This document shows positions 3,871-19,110 of a DNA stretch of 46,599 nucleotides, one piece after another (the stretch's first letter is position 1; every line of letters starts with the position of its first letter). Where the stretch lies: contig SYJV01000117.1 of NCBI GenBank assembly GCA_005798335.1, positions 1 through 46,599 of the forward strand, given 5' to 3'. The stretch comes from Planctomycetaceae bacterium. GTDB taxonomy: Bacteria > Planctomycetota > Planctomycetia > Pirellulales > Pirellulaceae. Below the pieces are notes generated by a model. The model did no database searches. It had not been told where the DNA came from and saw nothing but the letters and a program-made list of their open reading frames with translations. The position numbers and the translations under genes were made by a program.

Positions 3871-3880
3871 TACGTTCCTT

Positions 3881-3990
3881 TTTGCATTTTTCAATTTTCA
3901 TTACTCAATAATCATTGTCTTCCCGGCTGTGGCGTTTTGCAGACCGGACGAATGAGAAATGAGAAATGAGAAATGAGTAATGCAAAATGC
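3881..3990. repeat. AAATGAG-type palindromic simple-sequence repeat (copy 1)
   Basis: Left arm 3881-3917 is built from GCATTTTTCA and CATTACTCA. Right arm 3951-3990 has GAAATGA units in tandem and ends in GTAATGCAAAATG. CATTACTCA and TGAGTAATG are reverse complements, so the arms can pair imperfectly around a 33-base middle. It sits between the DUF1552 stop and the next gene's start. The same composition recurs at 5414-5513, 5886-5937, 6001-6103, 18533-18598 and 18985-19070. Confidence 0.7.
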
Positions 3991-3997
3991 TGGGGCC

Positions 3998-5371
3998 TTA
4001 TATGTCGAGCACTCTGTTACTATCCCCAAACTGCTCTGTCTCCACGCCCATGCGCTGGGCCATGAGGAGAAGCAGGTTACTCATGTGAGCGGCGTTGTTG
4101 GCGGGGCGGCTGCAGAGTTGGTAATGCGCAGAGGTGAGTGCACCGTCGGGACTGAGCGCATAGCCTTGGAAATCTTTGGCGTCTTTGTTGAAGTCGAGAT
4201 GGCTGCCATGCTTTAGACCGAGGTCGGTGCCGCCTGCGAGCACGAGCGGAAGGTTGGCATTTCCATGGCTGTGGCCGTAAGACATGCCGCTACCGAACAG
4301 CGTCATGGTCGAGCCGATGAGTGGCTTGCCATTGAGGTCTTTCGTTTCCGTGAGTCGGGTGAGGAAGTAGCTGAATTGCTCGATGGCGAAGGTGTCGTAG
4401 TTTGTTAGCTTCTCTATGTAACCAGCATCGCCACCGTGATGGCTAAGCTGATGGCGCGACTCGGTGATGCCAATCTCGGGAATGGCAAAAGCATCTCCCT
4501 CGCCACCGAGGCTGAAGGTGGCCACGCGCGTCACATCCGTTTGAAACGCGAGCACCATGAGGTCATAAACAGTACGGAAGTAATCCCCTGCCATCGTTTG
4601 CGCGATGTCGCGATTGCTGCGCTTGCGATCGGCGTCGGAAATTGTCGGCAGCGGCGTGTCGAGCCACGCATCAGCTCGGCGCGTCCGGATCTCAGCCTCT
4701 CGGACCGAGGTGAGGTATTGCTCCATGCGCCCCTTGTCCTCCGCGCCCATCTTCTTCTCTAACTGACTTACTTCGGCGAGGTTCGCGTCAAGCACGCTCC
4801 CCTTGCGGCGCAATGCGCGGCGTTGGGCCATTTTGCCACCCTTTGGCTCTTCAAAGAGCGACGCAAAAATCTCGCTGCAACGGCGCAACGCGGGCAACTG
4901 CACGCCATCCGCCGTCCATGCGAGCGAACCCTGCGTCAGCGCGACCTCCATCGAGGAAAAACGCGTGTGCGGCGCAGTGACCTCCGCCATCTTTTGGTCC
5001 ACCGAAATTGTGTTGCGATTCGACGGTCCGATCTTGCCGCCGGTGAGCCAGACATTGATGCAATTGTGATGGTGGCCGAGCGCTCCGGGATGATGCAGTC
5101 CGCTGATGGGCGTGATGACCTCGCGATGCTTTTCCAAAGGCTTGAGCGACCGCGAAGACTGATAGTCCTTGCCCGACTTGAGAATCTGGTAGTTCAGCGA
5201 ATGCACGCCATTCGCGAGGTAGATAAAGGCACTGCGTTTCGGCGTAGTGGTTTGTTGCTCGTCTGCCCGCAGCGGGACCATGCATTCCAAAAACGGCAAC
5301 GAGATGCAACTGCCCAGGGCGCGCAATGTGTGGCGTCGGTTTATAAGCCAAGATTGAGAGAGATAGTTCAT
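3998..5371 (-). CDS. DUF1552 domain-containing protein
   Basis: 457 residues. The N-terminus [20 protein letters not shown] is the Tat-like RRxxLRxLG export signal that starts nearly all DUF1552 proteins (compare SRRxFLRGxGxxxxLPxLE). The body carries family-typical segments: [69 protein letters not shown]. The repeated His and Gly-rich motifs suggest a metal-dependent, sulfatase/phosphatase-like fold, as proposed for the related DUF1501 family; activity is unknown. In planctomycetes DUF1552 genes usually follow DUF1592 genes, as here, and the pair is thought to act together. A broken four-helix-bundle gene with its repeats now separates the two. No strong ribosome site was seen. Confidence 0.9.
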
Positions 5372-5413: not shown

Positions 5414-5513
5414 AATGATTATTGAGAAATGAGAATTGAAAAATGCAAAAGTTTGGTGTTTTTCCGGCTTGAATTCATTCTGCATTTTTCAATCTCCATT
5501 TCTCATTACTCAT
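5414..5513. repeat. AAATGAG-type hairpin element (copy 2)
   Basis: The left arm (GAGAAATGAG, then AATTGAAAAATGCA) and right arm (TGCATTTTTCAAT, then CCATTTCTCATTACTCAT) form an imperfect hairpin of roughly 24 bp with a loop of about 25 bases. Its first 32 bases are identical to those of the copy at 6001-6103. The two copies flank the four-helix-bundle gene at 5510-5901 as direct repeats. A related single arm lies at 5886-5937, at the 5' end of that gene. Confidence 0.75.
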
Positions 5514-5901
5514 GACTGAGTCATGCGATTGGGCGATAGGTTCGATTTCGCGGTAACGAGCGACTTGGCGATGATCTTGCAGAGTTGGTCGCATTCATCT
5601 TGAAGTTGTTCGAGTCGTTGTTCCGGTATTAACTCAGACTTGACAATCAAGCGTATCCAAACCGAGCTTTCTCGAAGTTCTTTGAGAACAATTCCAAGCT
5701 TGTGAACGAAGTCGCGTTTGCTTTCGGCTGCGCATGCTTCGGCGTAATTGGGAGCCGGAGAAGTTCCAGAACGAACAAGTTGCGCGGCGATGTGTCTCGC
5801 CAGCCGCGTGTCCGGCAAGGCATCAATTGCTTTGCCAACTCGACTGCAAAATCCAACAACCGTTCTTCGATATCTGCTCCTTTCCTGCCTTCATTTTGCA
5901 T
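5510..5901 (-). pseudogene. Four-helix-bundle (S23/IVP-like) protein, frameshifted
   Basis: Two overlapping minus-strand frames make up one gene. The 5' frame (from 5901) encodes RKGADIEERLLDFAVELAK. The 3' frame encodes DALPDTRLARHI, RSGTSPAPNYAEACAAES and KRDFVHKLGIVLKELRESS, ending at 5510. These are hallmark motifs of the four-helix-bundle family named after the 23S rRNA intervening-sequence protein (TIGR02436). One base appears to be missing near 5830, right after the ELAK codons; restoring it gives about 130 residues, the usual size. Its 5' end lies inside an AAATGAG-type repeat and no convincing ribosome site is visible. The molecular role of the family is uncertain; it is not a canonical transposase. 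A sequencing error could also explain the frameshift. Confidence 0.8.
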
Positions 5902-6000
5902 TTTTCAGTCTCCATTTCTCATTACCCATTACTGAGTCAGTTAGGCGGCAACCACGATGCATTAGGCGGTTCATCGTTCGTTGGAGTCCTCCAGGTAATG

Positions 6001-6103
6001 AATGATTATTGAGAAATGAGAATTGAAAAATGAAAAACTTGGGTGTTGTTCGGGTTTGGCTTCATTTTGCATTTTTCAATCTTCATTTCTCACTACTCAT
6101 TAC
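6001..6103. repeat. AAATGAG-type hairpin element (copy 3)
   Basis: This is the same element as 5414-5513 in the same orientation: the first 32 bases are identical and the loops are similar (GGTGTT, then CGG, then CTT, then CATT). The right arm is GCATTTTTCAATCTTCATTT followed by CTCACTACTCAT. It lies ten bases from the DUF1592 stop codon. With copy 2 it brackets the broken 4HB gene. Confidence 0.75.
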
Positions 6104-6112
6104 CCCCTCGCT

Positions 6113-8614
6113 TCATCGCTTCCTAATTAGATCCGATATCGACACCGCTCGCACGAGGTCGCGAACTCGATATTGGTTCTTCTTTGCTTCCTCTGCAATC
6201 AACTTCAGGTCGTCTTGATCATCCACCGTCAGCACTCGGCGAAGAGCATAGGTGCAGAGATGTTCAACAAATGCTCGCGCGATCTTGTCGCGATCCTCCA
6301 GCAGCAATTGCTTGAATTCGACGGAGTCTTTGAACGAGCGACCATCGAGCATCACTCCCGAAGCGTCGACCAATGGATCCTCACCTGTCCCGGATGGAAC
6401 GCGTTCGTGTGTTCGCCACTTACCAATAGCGTCATACTGGTCCAATGCGAATCCAAGCGGATCAATTCCTTGATGACAAGCAGCACAACTTGCGTTCTGA
6501 GCATGCGCGGCAAGCTTCTCGCGAATAGTCGCTTTAGGGCTCTGTGGCGGATTTGGCTCAATCGGATTAACGTTAGCCGGAGGGGACGGCGGAGTCTTAT
6601 TGAAAATCGCTTCGCTGACCCACACGCCGCGATGCACTGGGCGATGGCGCGTGCCGTCAGAGGTGAGGCCGAGCACAGCGCCCATCGTGAGCAGGCCGCC
6701 GCGATGATCCTCGGGCTTCAGCGACACTCGCTCAAAGCCGCCCGACTTCGATTCCGGCAGTCCATAGAACTCGCAAAGCCGTGCATTGGCCACGGTCCAG
6801 TCGGAATGGATGAAGCTGTCGATGGACAAGTTTTTGTCAAACATCTCACGAAAAAACTCCACCGGCTCGGTGCGCATGCTGTCCTCCAGCCACGCGTCGT
6901 AGGTGGGATAGAGCTTCTTGTCCGGCGGGAACATTCCGACGCGATGCAGTTGCAGCCACTGTCGGGAAAAATCGTCGATGAAGCGGCTCGTATTGCTGTC
7001 CGCGAGCATTCGATCGACTTCTTTTTTCAAGCCATCGCCCTTCAGTGAGCCGCCTTTGGCTGCGGCAAAGAGCGCCTCGTCCGGCATCGAGCTCCACAGG
7101 AAATACGAGAGCCGTGTGGCCAGTTCCGAGTCGTTGAGATGCTCGCGGGCCACCGGATCGCCCTCGACGATGTAAATAAAGTGCCGCGAGGTCAGCACGC
7201 CCTGCATGGCAACGCGATAAGCATCCACCAGCTTCTCGCCCGCGTCGCGTTCCTCGCGATAGGACTTCAAGTACTCTTCCAGTTCGTCCACCTTCACTGG
7301 GCGACGCCACGCACGCTCGGCGAAGCGATGCAAATGCTCGGCAACCATCTCGGACGTCGCGTCATCCCGTGGCACCACGTCTTTGCGGCGCGACATTTCT
7401 GCCTCGGACACTAGCGGGCCTTCCCACTCGATCCAATCTAGCAGCACCGTTGAGAAAAGACCGTTCCCCTTGTCATCGAACATTTGCGGCGCGTTCGGGT
7501 TCAGCAGCATCGTTTCACTACTGTGCGTGAAGATGTAGCCGCCACGGCTTGCGAGCGCATTACGGAAAGCCGCGCCTTGCCGACGGTCGATCACGTCCGT
7601 GGCCACGACGCAGAAGTCGAGCTGCGCGGGCATTTCGAGGAAGACCTCAAATTCAAACACCTGCGGCTTGTCCTCCGGCGCATTGATGTCGAACTCGATG
7701 AGCCCGTCCACCGTCTCCTCGCTGGTGCGTTTGCCGATGCTCAGATGCGCCGTCTGGCCGCCCAGTGGACGGATGCCGCTGGCCTGAAGACGCAGCTTGT
7801 AGAGCCCGCTGTGCTCGGGGCCTGTTTTCCCAAACCAGTTGGGCGCGAGCGCCTGCTGTGTCGTGCCGGGGTACATCAGATAACGCAACGACCGCTTGAT
7901 GCCGAAACGATCCAGCGCCACCTGCTGCTCCTTGCCACCACCGTAGCGCAACTCCGCCGCCGTTTTGCGAACGATGCGGGCCTCTCCGGATGCTGCGGAA
8001 GAAGCGCGGTCGAGTACAACTTCTGCGGCATGATAGTAACGGTCTACATGCGATGGCGAGAGCGAGAGTTCCGAGCCGATTCGCTCATAACCATGCCACA
8101 GCGTATCTTCGTTGAGCTCGCCCGGTTTGGTCGGATCGTAGCGAACGCCCAGCAGGTCATAGACTGTGTTCTGATATTCCTTACGGCTTAACCGATAATG
8201 GGCTACCATTGGCCTCGCCGCCATCCTCGCGGCTCTGCCCTCCTTCATTTTTGCGTCCAGTTGCAAGACAAACTCTGCGATTTCCTCCTGAGTCGGTCGC
8301 AGTTCATTCTTCGGCGGCATCTCGCCGCTATTCACTTTATCGAGAGCCTCCGCCCAATGATGAGTGTCCGAGCCTGACTTGAAATCCCGCGAAAGTTGAT
8401 CGATCCGTAAATCACCTTCTTCCTTTTGAGGTCCATGACACCGAACGCAGTGCTTGGCGAGAAACGCATCGAACGGTTCCGCTCCGCATGTAACACCGGC
8501 AAAGCTCAAGCAGGCAATGGCCAATGTTATGGTCGTTATTCGGTTCGCGAAAATACAGCGCAACGAACCTTTCGCGGAGCGAAAGGCGACACTCACGTTA
8601 CCAGTTCTTTTCAC
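6113..8614 (-). CDS. DUF1592/DUF1588 planctomycete cytochrome c-like protein
   Basis: 833 residues from a GTG start at 8614 that overlaps the stop of a DUF1501 tail (GTGA), a relic of translational coupling. The order is: signal peptide ending in GVTCGA; a PSCyt1-type haem site CVRCHG (residues 56-60); DUF1587 around [19 protein letters not shown]1595 and DUF1592 around [22 protein letters not shown]1588 around [18 protein letters not shown]; a second Cxx[16 protein letters not shown] (about 710-714); then DUF1585 with [13 protein letters not shown]. These are multidomain exported proteins probably carrying c-type haem; electron transfer or oxidative attack on polymers is inferred, not shown. 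The partner DUF1552 gene lies downstream. The N-terminus ([18 protein letters not shown]) is encoded by a REP-like repeat. Confidence 0.92.
8541..8592. repeat. REP-like repeat (CTTTCGCGGAGCGAAAGG) inside a signal-peptide coding region
   Basis: The palindromic core CCTTTCGCGGAGCGAAAGG and the neighbouring TTCGCGAA form is a degenerate copy of the elements at 11123-11224 and 13912-13981. It is translated as residues about 8-24 of the DUF1592 protein, just ahead of the hydrophobic core of its signal peptide. Confidence 0.65.
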
Positions 8615-8706
8615 ACCAGAATTTCCTTCACCACCGAACCATAAACATCGGTCAGACGGTAATCGCGGCCGAGAAGTCGTCGAGTCAACCGGGTGCGATC
8701 GATCCC
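8611..8706 (-). pseudogene. Orphan 3' end of a DUF1501 gene
   Basis: The minus strand encodes [20 protein letters not shown] and then [11 protein letters not shown] before a stop at 8611. It matches the C-terminus of the DUF1501 protein at 9628-11109 ([20 protein letters not shown], then [10 protein letters not shown]). Homology stops abruptly above about 8706. The stop overlaps the DUF1592 start (GTGA), so this was probably the original 3' end of the upstream gene before repeats and a 4HB gene separated it. Confidence 0.75.
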
Positions 8707-8836
8707 AAAATTCACGCTATGGTCAGCTCTGACTCGGGCCATACTAAGGAGGATTGTGATCGCAAAAGAGTAAACGATGTTATTGAAGAGTTTGCTGTCA
8801 TGTATTGAGGACTTCGCATTATGGGAAAGACTGGCT

Positions 8837-8938
8837 CCTACTCTTAATCTTAATCTTAATCCCAATCCCATTCGGTCTTTCGTCCATGATAGCAGGCGGT
8901 CGGCAATAAGAGTAAGAGTAGGATTAAGATTAAGACTT
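8837..8938. repeat. TAATCT-type hairpin element H1
   Basis: The left arm contains CTTAATCTTAATCC and the right arm GGATTAAGATTAAG, exact complements, around a middle with TCGGTCTTTCGT and GGCGGTCGG. The middle resembles that of H3 (9590-9698). It lies just downstream of the intact 4HB gene (minus strand). Confidence 0.75.
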
Positions 8939-8957
8939 GGGAGGGAAGAGCGTTGAG

Positions 8958-9323
8958 TTACACCGCGCGATCAGGTGAGTTTGGGCGAATTAAGCCAACG
9001 AGCATCGATACGACCTCGATCAACATTGTTTTGCCGGCTTCAGCCGTATCGAGGCCAATCTTTCTTTTGGCAACTAGGACATCAAGACAGGCAGCGCATT
9101 CCAACGCAGAGCCGCGGGCTGTATCGAAAAACTTGCATCGATCTTTGGGCGTCGATTTTCCGTTACCCTCTGCGATATTCAATGGGACTGATGTTGATGC
9201 CCGGTCAAGCTGATCATGAGCTGCGATCGACTTTGGAATTGATTCTAGCAAGTCAGTGGACCACGCCACAAACTTGATCGATTGTTGGTAGACGCTCAAT
9301 TTCTCGTGATCAAACTGCTTCAT
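8958..9323 (-). CDS. Four-helix-bundle protein (S23/IVP-like), intact
   Basis: About 121 residues from ATG 9323; an upstream ATG at 9347 lies in the hairpin repeat. The translation MKQFDHEKLSVYQQSIKFVA and then the hallmark LDRASTSVPLNIAEGNGKST, RCKFFDTARGSALECAACLD identify the four-helix-bundle (TIGR02436) family in its usual length. It is the only intact one of three members in this window, and of a different subtype from the copies at 5510 and 18614 (no APNYAEA motif). It sits between TAATCT-type hairpins H1 and H2, inside what was a DUF1501-DUF1592 operon junction. The first 54 bases of its sequence are duplicated at 9535-9588. Family function is unresolved; relatives include proteins encoded in 23S rRNA intervening sequences and bAvd of diversity-generating retroelements. 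No reverse transcriptase is seen here. Confidence 0.85.
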   Translation of the reverse strand: MKQFDHEKLSVYQQSIKFVAWSTDLLESIPKSIAAHDQLDRASTSVPLNIAEGNGKSTPKDRCKFFDTARGSALECAACLDVLVAKRKIGLDTAEAGKTMLIEVVSMLVGLIRPNSPDRAV

Positions 9324-9340
9324 TCGCGAAATCCTACTCT

Positions 9341-9478
9341 TGATCATAATCTTACTCTTATATCATAATCTTAATCCTGATCCCCGCCGGCTTTGCCTTC
9401 GTCCCCACTCCGCCCCAAGAACAAGGGATTAAGATTAAGAGTAGGATTAAGATTAAGAAGGGTTAAGAAGGGTTAAGA
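9341..9478. repeat. TAATCT-type hairpin element H2
   Basis: The left arm (CCTACTCTTGATCATAATC, CTTAATCC) and right arm (GGATTAAGATTAAGAGTAGG, GATTAAGAAGGGTTAAG) are imperfect inverted repeats around a GC-rich middle. It lies directly upstream of the intact 4HB gene and directly downstream of a duplicated DUF1501 tail. Confidence 0.75.
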
Positions 9479-9532
9479 CAGAATCTCCTTCACGACCGAT
9501 CCATGCACGTCGGTCAGACGGTAATCGCGGCC
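9473..9532 (-). pseudogene. Second duplicated DUF1501 3' end
   Basis: The minus strand encodes [19 protein letters not shown] and a stop at 9473-9475, the conserved C-terminus of DUF1501 proteins. It is fused at 9532/9535 to the duplicated 5' end of the 4HB gene. It differs from both other tails by several bases (VHGS for VYGS, KEILS for KEILV), so the duplication is not very recent or came from a paralogue. Confidence 0.75.
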
Positions 9533-9534
9533 GA

Positions 9535-9588
9535 ATCGATTGTTGGTAGACGCTCAATTTCTCGTGATCAAACTGCTTCATTCGCGAA
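9535..9588 (-). pseudogene. Duplicated 5' end of the four-helix-bundle gene
   Basis: These 54 bases are identical to 9277-9330, the first codons of the intact 4HB gene (MKQFDHEKLSVYQQSI) and a few bases upstream. The frame then runs straight into the DUF1501 tail copy, so nothing functional is encoded. Confidence 0.8.
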
Positions 9589-9589
9589 T

Positions 9590-9698
9590 CCTACTCTTGA
9601 TCTTACTCTTAATCATAATCTTAATCCTCAGTCGGTCTTTCGTTCGTCGCCCCAAAGGCGGTCGGGATTAAGATTAAGAGTAGGATTAAGATTAAGAA
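9590..9698. repeat. TAATCT-type hairpin element H3
   Basis: The left arm is CCTACTCTTGATC, then CTTACTCTTAATCATAATC. The right arm is GGGATTAAGATTAAGAGTAG, then GATTAAGATTAAGAAG. The middle TCGGTCTTTCGT ... GGCGGTCGG matches H1. It overlaps the 3' end of the DUF1501 gene and encodes the last 23 or so residues of that protein. Confidence 0.75.
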
Positions 9699-11109
9699 GA
9701 ATTTCCTTCACGACCGAACCATAAACATCGGTCAGACGGTAATCGCGGCCGACGTGACGGTGCGTTAGGCGAGTGTGGTCGAGTCCCAACAAGTGGAGCA
9801 TCGTCGCGTGCAAATCGTGAATGTGGATTTTCCCTTCGATGATTTTGAAACCCATGTGGTCCGTTTCGCCGAAGGTAAAGCCGGGCTTGACGCCGCCGCC
9901 TGCCATCCATGCACAGAAACTTTGCGGCTGATGTTCGCGACCATGCTTGTCGATAGGCGCAGTGCCGCTCAAGTCCTGGCTCCATGGCGTCCGTCCAAAT
10001 TCACCGGACCACAGTACGAGCGTGTCTTCAAGCATCCCTCGTTGCTTCAAGTCCTTAACGAGCGCCGCGACCGGCTGGTCGGTTTGATTGCAGAGCTTGG
10101 GCAAGTTGCCTCGAACATCGCCGTGATGATCCCAACCATTCATCGTCACTTGCACAAAACGAACGCCCGACTCACTTAACTTGCGAGCCAACAAACACGC
10201 GCGAGCGTTCTTGTCGGCTTCCGTGTCCTTCGCTCCAATGCCGTACATCTTGAGCGTTTCTTCACTCTCCTTCGAAATGTCGACGAGCTGTGGCGTATCC
10301 GTCTGCATGCGAAAAGCGAGTTCCATGTTCTGAATCATCCCTTCCATGTTCGCGTCACCATGGAGCTCACCGAGAAGCTGTTTGTTCATCCGCTGGGTCA
10401 TATCCATCCGTTTGCGCTGGACGGCATCCGTTGCCGATACGTTCTTTAGATTATCAATCGGCGACGTTGTGCTATTCTGTGGAACCGTAAGGGCTGTACC
10501 TTGATGCATGGCCGGTAGAAACCCCGAACCGTAACTACGAACACCGCCTGGGTGAATGGTGACGAAACTCGGCAAGTTTTGGTTCTCAGTACCAAGCCCA
10601 TAGCTGATCCAGGCCCCCATCGAAGGTCGGACTTCGGTGAAGCTGCCGGTATGGAATTGATTCGTTGCGCTGGCGTGTTGCGGATTGTCGGCGTTCATGC
10701 CACGCAACAAGCAGATGTCGTCCGCAATCTCAGCTAGATGCGGCATCAAGTCGGAGATCATCATGCCCGATTGACCGCGAGGTTTTACCGGAGCCATCGC
10801 GCCGAGCGCTAGGAACCTCTCAGTCCCGATCTGCGTTACATTCTTATCAAGCGGAGAATCAATCGCCTCACCGTGTTTATTGGTGATGTATGGCTTGGGA
10901 TCAAAGAGATCCATCTGGGAAGGACCGCCCGCCATGAATAGGAATATGACGCGTTTCACTTGAGGAGTGACATCCAGGACACGCCCGCTGAATGCTCTCG
11001 TCGACTCACTTGCTGCAGCATGCATCATGTCATGCAAGGCCAATGCTCCGAAACCACAAGCTGCATGTTGCAAACACTGACGACGATTTGGAAGGAAATT
11101 GAAGTTCAT
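9628..11109 (-). CDS. DUF1501 domain-containing protein
   Basis: 493 residues; ATG 11109 has a GAGG-type site upstream. The N-terminus PNRRQCLQHAACGFGALAL is a Tat-like signal. Family segments are VKRVIFLFMAGGPSQMDLFD, GQSGMMISDLMPHLAEIADD, NQFHTGSFTEVRPSMGAWIS, NGWDHHGD, LWSGEFGRTPWSQ and KHGREHQPQSFCAWMAGGG, ending in [21 protein letters not shown]1501 proteins have an alkaline-phosphatase/sulfatase-like fold and are exported; the substrate is unknown. In planctomycetes the gene nearly always follows a PSD1 gene, as here (PSD1 ends 117 bases upstream). The C-terminus is odd: family members stop one or two residues after KEIL, but here a repeat-encoded tail with two LNLNP segments follows, because hairpin H3 replaced the native stop codon. 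Confidence 0.93.
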   Translation of the reverse strand: MNFNFLPNRRQCLQHAACGFGALALHDMMHAAASESTRAFSGRVLDVTPQVKRVIFLFMAGGPSQMDLFDPKPYITNKHGEAIDSPLDKNVTQIGTERFLALGAMAPVKPRGQSGMMISDLMPHLAEIADDICLLRGMNADNPQHASATNQFHTGSFTEVRPSMGAWISYGLGTENQNLPSFVTIHPGGVRSYGSGFLPAMHQGTALTVPQNSTTSPIDNLKNVSATDAVQRKRMDMTQRMNKQLLGELHGDANMEGMIQNMELAFRMQTDTPQLVDISKESEETLKMYGIGAKDTEADKNARACLLARKLSESGVRFVQVTMNGWDHHGDVRGNLPKLCNQTDQPVAALVKDLKQRGMLEDTLVLWSGEFGRTPWSQDLSGTAPIDKHGREHQPQSFCAWMAGGGVKPGFTFGETDHMGFKIIEGKIHIHDLHATMLHLLGLDHTRLTHRHVGRDYRLTDVYGSVVKEILLNLNPTLNLNPDRLWGDERKTD

Positions 11110-11122
11110 GATTGGCCTCTTG

Positions 11123-11224
11123 GATAGTCGCCTTTCGCTCCGCGAAAGTGATGTTCAATGTCGGCTTTCGCTCCGCGAAAGTGCGTCTCTTTATGTTCCT
11201 TTTGCGGAGCAAAAGGCGACTATC
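11123..11224. repeat. Compound REP-like element (CTTTCGCTCCGCGAAAG type)
   Basis: Outer arms GATAGTCGCC (11123) and GGCGACTATC (ending 11224) are complementary. Inside are two copies of CTTTCGCTCCGCGAAAG (7-bp stem) and one CTTTTGCGGAGCAAAAG. It lies between the PSD1 stop and the DUF1501 start, so it would be transcribed as a branched structure in the polycistronic mRNA. Related copies lie at 13912-13981 and 8541-8592. Confidence 0.8.
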
Positions 11225-17590: not shown

Positions 17591-18544
17591 ATGAAGCAAC
17601 GCATCGTCTATTTTAACGGCCGATTTATTCCGGAAGCTGAGGCTCGTGTTTCGATCTTTGATTCCGCGCTCATGTACGGCGATATGGCCTTCGAGATGAC
17701 CCGAACCTACAACCGTCAACCGTTTAAGCTGCGAGAACATCTCGACCGCTTGTACTCCTCGCTGCGGCTGCTGGAAATTGACTGCGGTTTGTCCATTGAA
17801 GAAATGGAGCGGATCACGCGGGAGACGCTCGACCGCAATCTGCCCAGCGAGTCAACTGACGTGGATTGGCAGATCATGCACGACGTCTCGCGTGGGCCGT
17901 TGGATGTCTACCGCACGGCTTTTCCCGAGCCTCTGCGGCCAACCGTGTCGATCAACTGCTGGCCGATGATCACACACATGGGAGGCTTTGCACCCAAGTA
18001 CGCCAGCGGCGTCGATATCGTGATTCCGGCACAGCCAGCGGTACCGGCGCATTTGGTCGACGCCAAAGCGAAAACACGCAGCCGTTTGCATTATCAGTTA
18101 GCCAATTTGCAAGCCGCCCGCATGGGTGCGGGGCGCTGGCCCGTGCTGCTCGACCCCGACGGCTTCCTGGCCGAAGGCCCAGGTTGGAATATCTTTCTCG
18201 TCAAGAACGGCGAGATCCTGACCCCCGAACCTCGCAACATCTTGCTGGGTGTCAGCCGCGCGACGACGATCGAATTGGCTCGCGAGTTGGGCATTCCAGT
18301 ACGTGAAACGAATCTCGGTCGTTACGAAGCACTGTCTGCCGACGAGATTTTTTGCACGGCGACGTCCTACGCCCTCGTCCACGCAACAACGTTTGAAGGT
18401 CAACGGATTGGCAGCGGCAATATGGGGCCAATCTTCAATCGCTTGTTAGAGGCGTGGAAGAAATTGGTGGGCGTCGACTTCGTCGCCCAGGCTCGAGACT
18501 ATGCTTTACGACTTCCCGATTGGCTGAAACGCGATGAGAAATGA
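17591..18544 (+). CDS. Class IV aminotransferase (PLP-dependent)
   Basis: 317 residues. The start YFNGRFIPEAEARVSIFDSA, LMYGDMAFEMTRTYN is the usual N-terminus of fold-type IV enzymes (branched-chain aminotransferase, D-amino-acid aminotransferase, aminodeoxychorismate lyase). Lys161 in AKTRSRLHYQLANLQA is the likely PLP-binding lysine, and Glu195 in LAEGPGWNIFLVKNGEILTP the residue contacting the pyridine nitrogen. The C-terminal GVSRATTIELARELGI and DEIFCTATSYALVHAT match the cofactor phosphate-binding region. Substrate cannot be decided; the TRTYN region near residue 36-41 is unlike typical IlvE. Encoded after the symporter and before a broken 4HB gene and an aldo/keto reductase. Its last codons and stop merge into an AAATGAG repeat. 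Confidence 0.88.
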   Translation: MKQRIVYFNGRFIPEAEARVSIFDSALMYGDMAFEMTRTYNRQPFKLREHLDRLYSSLRLLEIDCGLSIEEMERITRETLDRNLPSESTDVDWQIMHDVSRGPLDVYRTAFPEPLRPTVSINCWPMITHMGGFAPKYASGVDIVIPAQPAVPAHLVDAKAKTRSRLHYQLANLQAARMGAGRWPVLLDPDGFLAEGPGWNIFLVKNGEILTPEPRNILLGVSRATTIELARELGIPVRETNLGRYEALSADEIFCTATSYALVHATTFEGQRIGSGNMGPIFNRLLEAWKKLVGVDFVAQARDYALRLPDWLKRDEK

Positions 18545-18598
18545 GAAATGAAAAGCGAAAATGCAAAATGAAAAGTGAAAAATGAGAAGTGAAAAATA
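18533..18598. repeat. AAATGAG-type simple-sequence repeat (copy 4)
   Basis: Imperfect units GATGAGAAATGA, GAAATGAAAAGCG, AAAATGCAAAATG and AAAAGTGAAAAATG run in tandem, beginning inside the last codons of the aminotransferase. It is the upstream flank of the third 4HB gene. Parts can pair with the GCATTT-rich arms at 19031-19070. Confidence 0.7.
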
Positions 18599-18613
18599 GG
18601 CGAAGGCGACGTG

Positions 18614-19110
18614 ATGCAATCGAACGGGCGTCGAAGCGGCGAGGATATTGAGGAGCGACTTCTTGAGTTCGCAGCCCAGATTGGCAAAATCGTTGACGTG
18701 TTGCCCGAAACTCGGCTGGGGCTACACATTGCCACCAGATCATTCGTTCAGGGACATCGCCAGCTCCGAATTATGCGGAAGCTTGCGCGGCGGAAAGCAA
18801 GAAAGATTTCGTGCATAAGCTGAGCATCGTGCTCAAGGAACTTCGCGAAACTCGCATCTGGATTCGCTTGATCATCAAGGCTGCGCTCATTCCCGACGAT
18901 CGTATCCAACCGCTGCTTGACGAATGCCAGCAACTCGCAAACATCATCGGCAAGTCGATTGTCACCGCCAAATCAAATAACAGACAATGCAAAATGATAA
19001 ATGCAAAATGCAAAATGTTAACACTGGTCCAATTTGCATTTATCAATTTGCATTTATCATTTTGCATTTTCCTATCCACTGAGGAAACACCATGCAACTT
19101 CGTCCGTTAG
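18614..19110 (+). pseudogene. Four-helix-bundle (S23/IVP-like) protein, frameshifted
   Basis: The first frame (ATG 18614) gives SGEDIEERLLEFAAQIGK and DVLPETRLGLHIA. The rest lies in another frame: QIIRSGTSPAPNYAEACAAE, SKKDFVHKLSIVLKELRETR, IRLIIKAALIPDD and IIGKSIVTAKS. Joined near 18735, where one base appears to be missing in GCCACCAG, it is a full 4HB protein closely related to the one at 5510-5901. The 3' end reads through into a repeat and stops at 19110, overlapping the aldo/keto reductase start, so the native stop was probably lost. It interrupts the aminotransferase to aldo/keto reductase gene pair. Sequencing error is an alternative for the frameshift. Confidence 0.8.
18985..19070. 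repeat. AAATGCAAAATG-type hairpin (copy 5)
   Basis: Left arm 18985-19019 (tandem AAATGCAAAATG units) and right arm 19031-19070 (TTGCATTTATCA units) are near-complementary around ACACTGG, so the RNA would fold into a long AT-rich hairpin. It ends about 20 bases before the aldo/keto reductase ATG and could affect its translation. Confidence 0.75.

Follow-up and report, generated by a model that had tools for sequence, protein, structure and literature searches.

An array of hairpins, DUF1501 gene ends and four-helix-bundle genes in a planctomycete, and its possible origin from a small mobile cassette

Intervening sequences (IVSs) of 23S rRNA may hold an open reading frame (ORF) of the S23p/IVP type; in one account, heptamer repeats stand before this ORF, their number varies among strains and the IVS is excised by RNase III (PMC4990558). 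Insertion sequences (ISs) are also described as 23S IVSs in PMC2672173, and PMC10053308 likens the protein family concerned, PF05635, to Avd, the accessory protein of diversity-generating retroelements (DGRs). The present analysis concerns a 46,599-nt stretch of DNA (the window) from the Planctomycetaceae bacterium assembly GCA_005798335.1 (contig SYJV01000117.1), an 8.46-Mb draft in 558 contigs, in which a gene of this family, here called 4HB after the four-helix-bundle, lies in an array of hairpins and DUF1501 gene ends between a DUF1501 and a DUF1592 gene. The explanation that is given somewhat better than even weight is a single insertion of a mobile 4HB cassette into the overlapping DUF1501 and DUF1592 genes, which would have duplicated the DUF1501 end, followed by local tandem duplication. 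No account of intergenic 4HB cassettes was found among the titles and opening parts of abstracts searched, a literature with preprints and most subscription journals outside its scope.

The product of the window 4HB gene (8958-9323, minus strand) scores 74.7 bits against PF05635 (23S_rRNA_IVP; cut-off 33.8) and 70.5 against TIGR02436 (cut-off 24), and the sole solved chain that matches it at E <= 0.01 is 2GSC (E = 1.2e-6). The cassette resembles the 23S rRNA IVS in its protein family and in the placement of the ORF between complementary ends, its inverted arms exceeding those of 30/30 shuffled sequences (z = 11.5). It differs in that it lies between protein genes, outside 23S rRNA, and in that arms of its type are arrays of hexamers or heptamers. 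As a difference from DGRs, no reverse transcriptase was found among the 27 window ORFs scanned against Pfam, which are a part of all window ORFs, and the scanned ORFs also lacked an integrase such as would be expected of an integrative element with a gene-end att site.

All features of the array are read on the minus strand. The DUF1501 gene (PF07394; 9628-11109) carries the first copy of the repeated gene end (tail 1, 9698-9752) at the end of its body; its frame then passes into hairpin H3 (9589-9697), which consists of a TTAATC arm, a GC-rich loop and a GATTAAG arm, and stops 22 codons past the residues KEIL, the 3' end of the gene thus being extended by read-through of the hairpin. Behind H3 follow a 54-bp 5' fragment of the 4HB gene (9535-9588; 7 nt before the ATG and 47 nt of coding sequence, 0/54 mismatches against 9277-9330) and a second tail (9480-9534), which ends in KEILS and a TAA stop that comes from the repeat, and which differs from tail 1 at 5/55 positions and from the third copy at 6. 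Hairpin H2 (9331-9472) stands in front of the intact 4HB gene and hairpin H1 (8836-8938) behind it, and 4HB is the sole gene between the hairpins. A spacer (8673-8835), whose last ~42 nt are diverged DUF1501 sequence, runs on without interruption into tail 3 (8618-8672), which ends in KEILV; its stop, the TGA at 8611-8613, overlaps the GTG start of the DUF1592/PSD4 gene (6113-8614). This order of three 55-bp tails, three hairpins, a 4HB fragment and an intact 4HB gene is the one that a sequence-only reading had described. H3 folds better than all shuffled versions (0/200 as good, z = -3.2) and H1 better than most (5/200, z = -2.6), and the loops of the two have motifs in common. With up to 3 mismatches, the arm motif has 6 matches in the genome, all of them within the array; no Rfam match at gathering scores was obtained anywhere in the window.

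Orthologs of the DUF1501 and DUF1592 neighbours were searched in 60 genomes. On contig C714 of a genome of the same genus (G010), a DUF1501 ortholog, 77% identical, ends in CTCGCGTAATGACA / CTCGCGTAATG, and its TAA and the ATG of a DUF1592-like frame overlap, no cassette separating the two genes; this frame runs for 66 codons up to the contig edge and aligns with the start of the window DUF1592 protein. In genome G014, the DUF1592 ortholog (79%) is preceded by a GntR/FCD regulator and a short stretch resembling a DUF1501 tail, and a GntR/FCD regulator is likewise found upstream of the window operon. The junction between DUF1592 and DUF1552 also occurs without a cassette, in G048 and G027. Judged by G010 and G014, the native arrangement is DUF1501 overlapping DUF1592. 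Given this order, tail 3 lies at its native place and tail 1 is the extra copy.

A 24-mer of the tail, CGGCCGCGATTACCGTCTGACCGA, occurs exactly three times in the genome, each time in the array, and the next-best match elsewhere is a single one on contig C13 with 3 mismatches. Tails 1 and 3 differ at only 1/55 positions, and just upstream at 16/37 (Fisher p = 5e-7). The 14 residues that precede the conserved part of tail 3 (before GRDYR) are nevertheless DUF1501-like, beating 20000/20000 shuffles when scored against three DUF1501 proteins (those of G008, G010 and the window); in a Pfam scan, however, the 86-aa frame that holds tail 3 matched no family at E <= 0.001. Tail 3, which the sequence-only reading had correctly placed with its stop over the DUF1592 start, is hence DUF1501-like over ~32 codons instead of the 18 then assumed. 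Because the likeness extends this far upstream, the duplicated stretch probably measured about 96 bp originally.

In the favoured explanation, a small mobile cassette, composed of an arm or hairpin, the 4HB gene and a second arm or hairpin, would have inserted at the overlap of DUF1501 and DUF1592, its movement driven by itself or by a helper enzyme, and the event would have duplicated some 55-96 bp at the end of DUF1501. Of the two copies, the left one (tail 1) would finish DUF1501 and the right one (tail 3) would keep the upstream region and the start of DUF1592; target duplications of such length may survive because neither gene loses its reading frame. Tail 2, H2 and the 54-bp 4HB fragment would have come later, through local tandem duplication or unequal recombination, and tails 1 and 3 may finally have been homogenised by gene conversion.

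Host sequence is also duplicated at some other cassettes. Direct repeats beside the cassette reach a score of at least 12 in 7/94 own pairs compared with 0.13% of mismatched pairs. Six cassettes have long repeats, of which the window cassette (L003), L075 and L084 show host duplications, L102 and L037 show matches between arm units, and L198 is the sixth. At L084, the duplicated 47-48 bp take in both the upstream stop and the start of a pdxB-like gene, and the 45 bp duplicated at L075 contain the beginning of a CHASE2/cyclase gene; in both cases the downstream gene is open to the end and the cassette lacks IS-type ends. The name pdxB-like denotes a best NCBIfam match below its cut-off (382.7 of 434). 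Nine-bp edge repeats were seen at L060, L077 and L128, and 9 bp also in L073. A short target duplication common to all cassettes was rejected: the mean shared edge string is 4.09 compared with 3.30 in swapped pairs, an excess carried by a subset. A clean empty site for L084 was likewise discarded, as the 170 nt upstream of the pdxB-like start in eight relatives (of 15 loci listed) show no arms by eye but follow other upstream genes. The locus L198 (contig C2 of G005), beside L040, has a diverged 90-nt direct repeat across its cassette, and another 4HB gene is situated ~3.5 kb away on the same contig.

The serious competitor, held to be possible but clearly the less probable, is a purely local tandem duplication: a cassette downstream of DUF1501 would have been multiplied together with the tail by slippage or illegitimate recombination promoted by the arms, with no target duplication at all. 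In its favor, the units tail 1-H3-4HB' (218 bp) and tail 2-H2-4HB' (258 bp) align end to end, with left arm and 4HB part identical and with differences in tail and loop, and tandem copies have arisen elsewhere. At L083, in a member of the Desulfococcaceae, an independent second cassette copy stands in tandem with 12 nt of the end of gmd and 24 nt of the start of an fcl-like gene (best NCBIfam matches 587.9 of 415, above the cut-off, and 438.7 of 500, below it). In G014, a decayed second cassette follows the first in the gap between DUF1592 and DUF1552. Here, however, the copy aligns only from the DUF1592 stop codon onward, with a gene-end likeness of just 8 nt, judged by eye, which speaks against the purely local account. 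Moreover, that account predicts that a cassette adjoins DUF1592, barring a later loss, whereas tail 3 meets DUF1592 directly, with no cassette behind it, just like the native tail of G010. Of the five differences between tail 2 and tail 1, four are synonymous and the fifth gives a His (DVHG), as in the orthologs of G010 and G008; the second unit would be explained by tandem duplication or by recombination with a diverged allele. The sequence-only reading had named simple local duplication as the better explanation should the order tail, hairpin, 4HB be confined to this genome; no other genome showed exactly this order, and the repeated unit is accordingly explained by local duplication, while the proposal of a mobile cassette still stands.

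A mis-joining of hairpins and near-identical tails during short-read assembly is considered unlikely. Hairpin repeats are hard to assemble and the draft consists of many contigs, but the three tails and the two units differ at several positions, which simple duplication of reads does not yield, and comparable structures exist in unrelated assemblies.

In a wider genome collection, 446 relatives of the window 4HB protein were found, of which 80 were listed and 79 used (L068, cut at a contig edge, was dropped). By their record titles, they belong to Planctomycetota, Verrucomicrobiota, Kiritimatiellota, Lentisphaerota, Desulfococcaceae and others. For the genus, 49 of 59 PF05635 matches in 15 genomes were used, leaving out 1 at a contig edge and 9 that were weak or partial; 14/15 of these genomes have 4HB (23S_rRNA_IVP) genes. 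The subfamily of the window 4HB protein is found at E <= 1e-25 in 6/392 planctomycete genomes, the source genome included. A phylogenetic proof of transfer between phyla failed, for the 8 Planctomycetota rows need 5 changes and a single origin is compatible with the well-supported branches.

Among loci with enough flanking sequence, inverted arms above 30/30 shuffles are present at 68/74 loci of the wide set and at 32/47 of the genus set. Their repeat structure is regular: a periodic 36-mer stronger than in 10 shuffles occurs in 148/154 flanks of the wide set, the period being 6 in 146 of these. The unit reads C-N-T-N-N-T, with frequencies of 0.96 for C and of 0.93 and 0.97 for the two T, the remaining positions being free. 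As the phase was chosen to fit these anchors, the three high values arise partly by construction, which does not apply to the period. In the genus set, periodicity was found in 72/96 flanks, with a period of 7 in 41. Arms match their own partners better than those of other loci, with mean scores of 25.6 compared with 15.6 in the wide set and 18.5 compared with 9.7 in the genus set. Strict base pairing was rejected as the cause of this similarity, because unit order is irrelevant beyond the shared vocabulary; an earlier order test, which left the phase ambiguous, gave p < 0.05 at 5/74 loci (Fisher p = 0.40). Adenine-specific variation of the arms, as in DGRs, was also dismissed, since hexamer positions 2, 4 and 5 vary to all four bases across loci.

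The neighbors of cassettes were taken from uncurated longest-ORF calls at the 95/128 loci with an arm z above 4 (91 left and 84 right neighbors). On the left, 71/91 end with their stop towards the cassette, at a median of 10 nt from the arm, and on the right, 64/84 begin towards it, at a median of 25 nt. Co-directional neighbors are usual in bacteria, so only the closeness of their ends is telling, and selection against insertions inside genes could produce it. The suggestion that a mobile-looking element sits just after gene ends is supported by 35 of the 71 co-directional left stops, which lie within 30 nt, together with the empty site in G010. The same planctomycete gene group adjoins cassettes elsewhere: they occupy the DUF1553/DUF1501 junction at L031, L063, L094, L095 and L106, the DUF1592/DUF1552 junction in the window, G014 and G024, and the gap between DUF1552 and the next gene at L050, L051 and L053. 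The source genome alone has at least 27 DUF1501 matches (27/198 candidates scored), and the abundance of such genes may explain the association.

The idea suggested in the sequence-only reading, a cassette directed at DUF1501 ends with a captured DUF1501 tail built into the element, is very improbable: the three tails within 1.1 kb and the His and four synonymous differences of tail 2, which look as if drawn from another working DUF1501 gene, would suit it, but DUF1501 lies directly upstream in just 1/128 loci, the window locus, the tail 24-mer has no exact match elsewhere in the genome, and cassettes with host pieces duplicate whichever gene adjoins them (gmd and fcl-like at L083, pdxB-like at L084, CHASE2/cyclase at L075). 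A long target duplication accounts for the tail copies better.

In the Verrucomicrobia genome ADurb.Bin070 (G060), which has 14 matches to the window 4HB protein, 4HB elements are multicopy. Eleven loci (L243-L253) have the element end GGCGCATGGCAGTTCTGTTGG or a near form of it, with differing flanks. Compared with the 558-bp reference copy L245, eight further copies are 98.7-99.6% identical over the 245-524 bp present; L247 and L253 carry deletions or have diverged further. The element is interrupted by the ends of several contigs. Allowing up to 3 mismatches, the 21-bp end is matched 41 times in this genome and 0 times in a reversed control, and two of the matches bound a 1998-bp IS with a 9-bp duplication, whose transposase is assigned to ISKra4 (NF033572, 209.1 compared with a cut-off of 205; Pfam name UPF0236). 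Among the 9 two-ended copies, 4 are flanked by 9-11-bp target duplications. The 4HB unit together with its arms thus travels like a passenger of an IS in at least one genome, and 4HB itself may be a passenger in the movement. The G060 elements resemble miniature inverted-repeat transposable element (MITE)-like derivatives of ISKra4 ISs in the 21-bp ends common to the 4HB element and the complete IS and, in part of the copies, in the 9-11-bp duplications. The window cassette differs from such derivatives in its repeat arms and in the length of its host duplication, at least 55 bp instead of the ~9 bp of an ISKra4-derived MITE, and no such ends were seen at it by eye. In the source genome, ISKra4 matches are sub-threshold only (best 114.6 compared with 205). 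Further G060 elements of 218-352 bp (L264/L265, L268, L271, L279, L285 and L288) share the 21-bp ends but lack a full 4HB gene; elements with these ends range from a full IS to a miniature element.

Several observations weigh against an insertion with target duplication as the origin of the window array. The divergence at 16/37 positions upstream of tails 1 and 3 means that gene conversion has to be added to the model. The gene beside DUF1501 in G010 is truncated by the contig edge, and no DUF1592 match was found in this genome at E <= 1e-100, which is explained by the presence of only the first 66 codons on the contig. Most cassettes (87/94) stay below a repeat score of 12, and the repeat of L094, one of the seven above it, is not at the arm edge. 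In G060, the short duplication is weak (6 bp exact) in 1/9 two-ended copies and absent in 4/9. Inspection of the window cassette by eye showed no G060-type terminal repeats, the G060 end not having been searched for in the source genome. The order of units is unpaired between the arms beyond their shared vocabulary (2/63 loci with p < 0.05, Fisher p = 0.57), and 19/200 shuffles fold at least as well as H2 (z = -1.4).

The window contains further traces of such cassettes. A second one (5415-6110, minus strand), with a hairpin, an arm, a frameshifted 4HB gene and a hairpin, has arms of the ATGAGAAATG type and is located between DUF1592 and DUF1552, and a third (18536-19080, plus strand) has ATGAG-type arms and a broken 4HB gene, the stop of an aminotransferase gene at 18544 lying inside its first repeat. 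The 4HB genes at 5510-5901 and 18600-18990 are apparently frameshifted, and their arms (ATGAGAAATG-type) and protein are unlike those of the 8958-9323 gene. A solo hairpin of the ATGAG type without 4HB (3876-4000, minus strand) is found between DUF1552 and the next gene, where L050, L051 and L053 have a full cassette with other arms; by analogy with a solo long terminal repeat, it could be a recombination remnant. Two more 4HB genes were noted in the source genome: at L006 (contig C499, 2040-2540), the arm unit is TAAG plus three free bases and, by eye, the stop of an opposite frame lies in the repeat, and at L007 (contig C75, 1750-2390), the arm units are AATGACC/GGTCATT. At the DUF1592 start (8560-8600), a palindrome, CGCCTTTCGCTCCGCGAAAGG, reads in frame as AFRSAKG, with similar ones near 11150 and 13960; it is presumably of the repetitive extragenic palindrome type.

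Taken more broadly, and only tentatively, the cassettes might constitute a very small mobile family present in several phyla, in which a 4HB gene is held between arms of fixed grammar (C-N-T-N-N-T here, often heptamers elsewhere). Such elements would settle at stop-start junctions and generate target duplications of ~45-100 bp that allow entry into overlapping genes without breaking them, and 4HB, as a relative of Avd, would act in movement or in making the arms. By these data, 4HB genes are associated with arms of conserved grammar, with gene junctions and, in one genome, with an IS. The spread of IVS ORFs thereby becomes testable outside ribosomal RNA, and the array suggests how insertions into overlapping genes can be tolerated.

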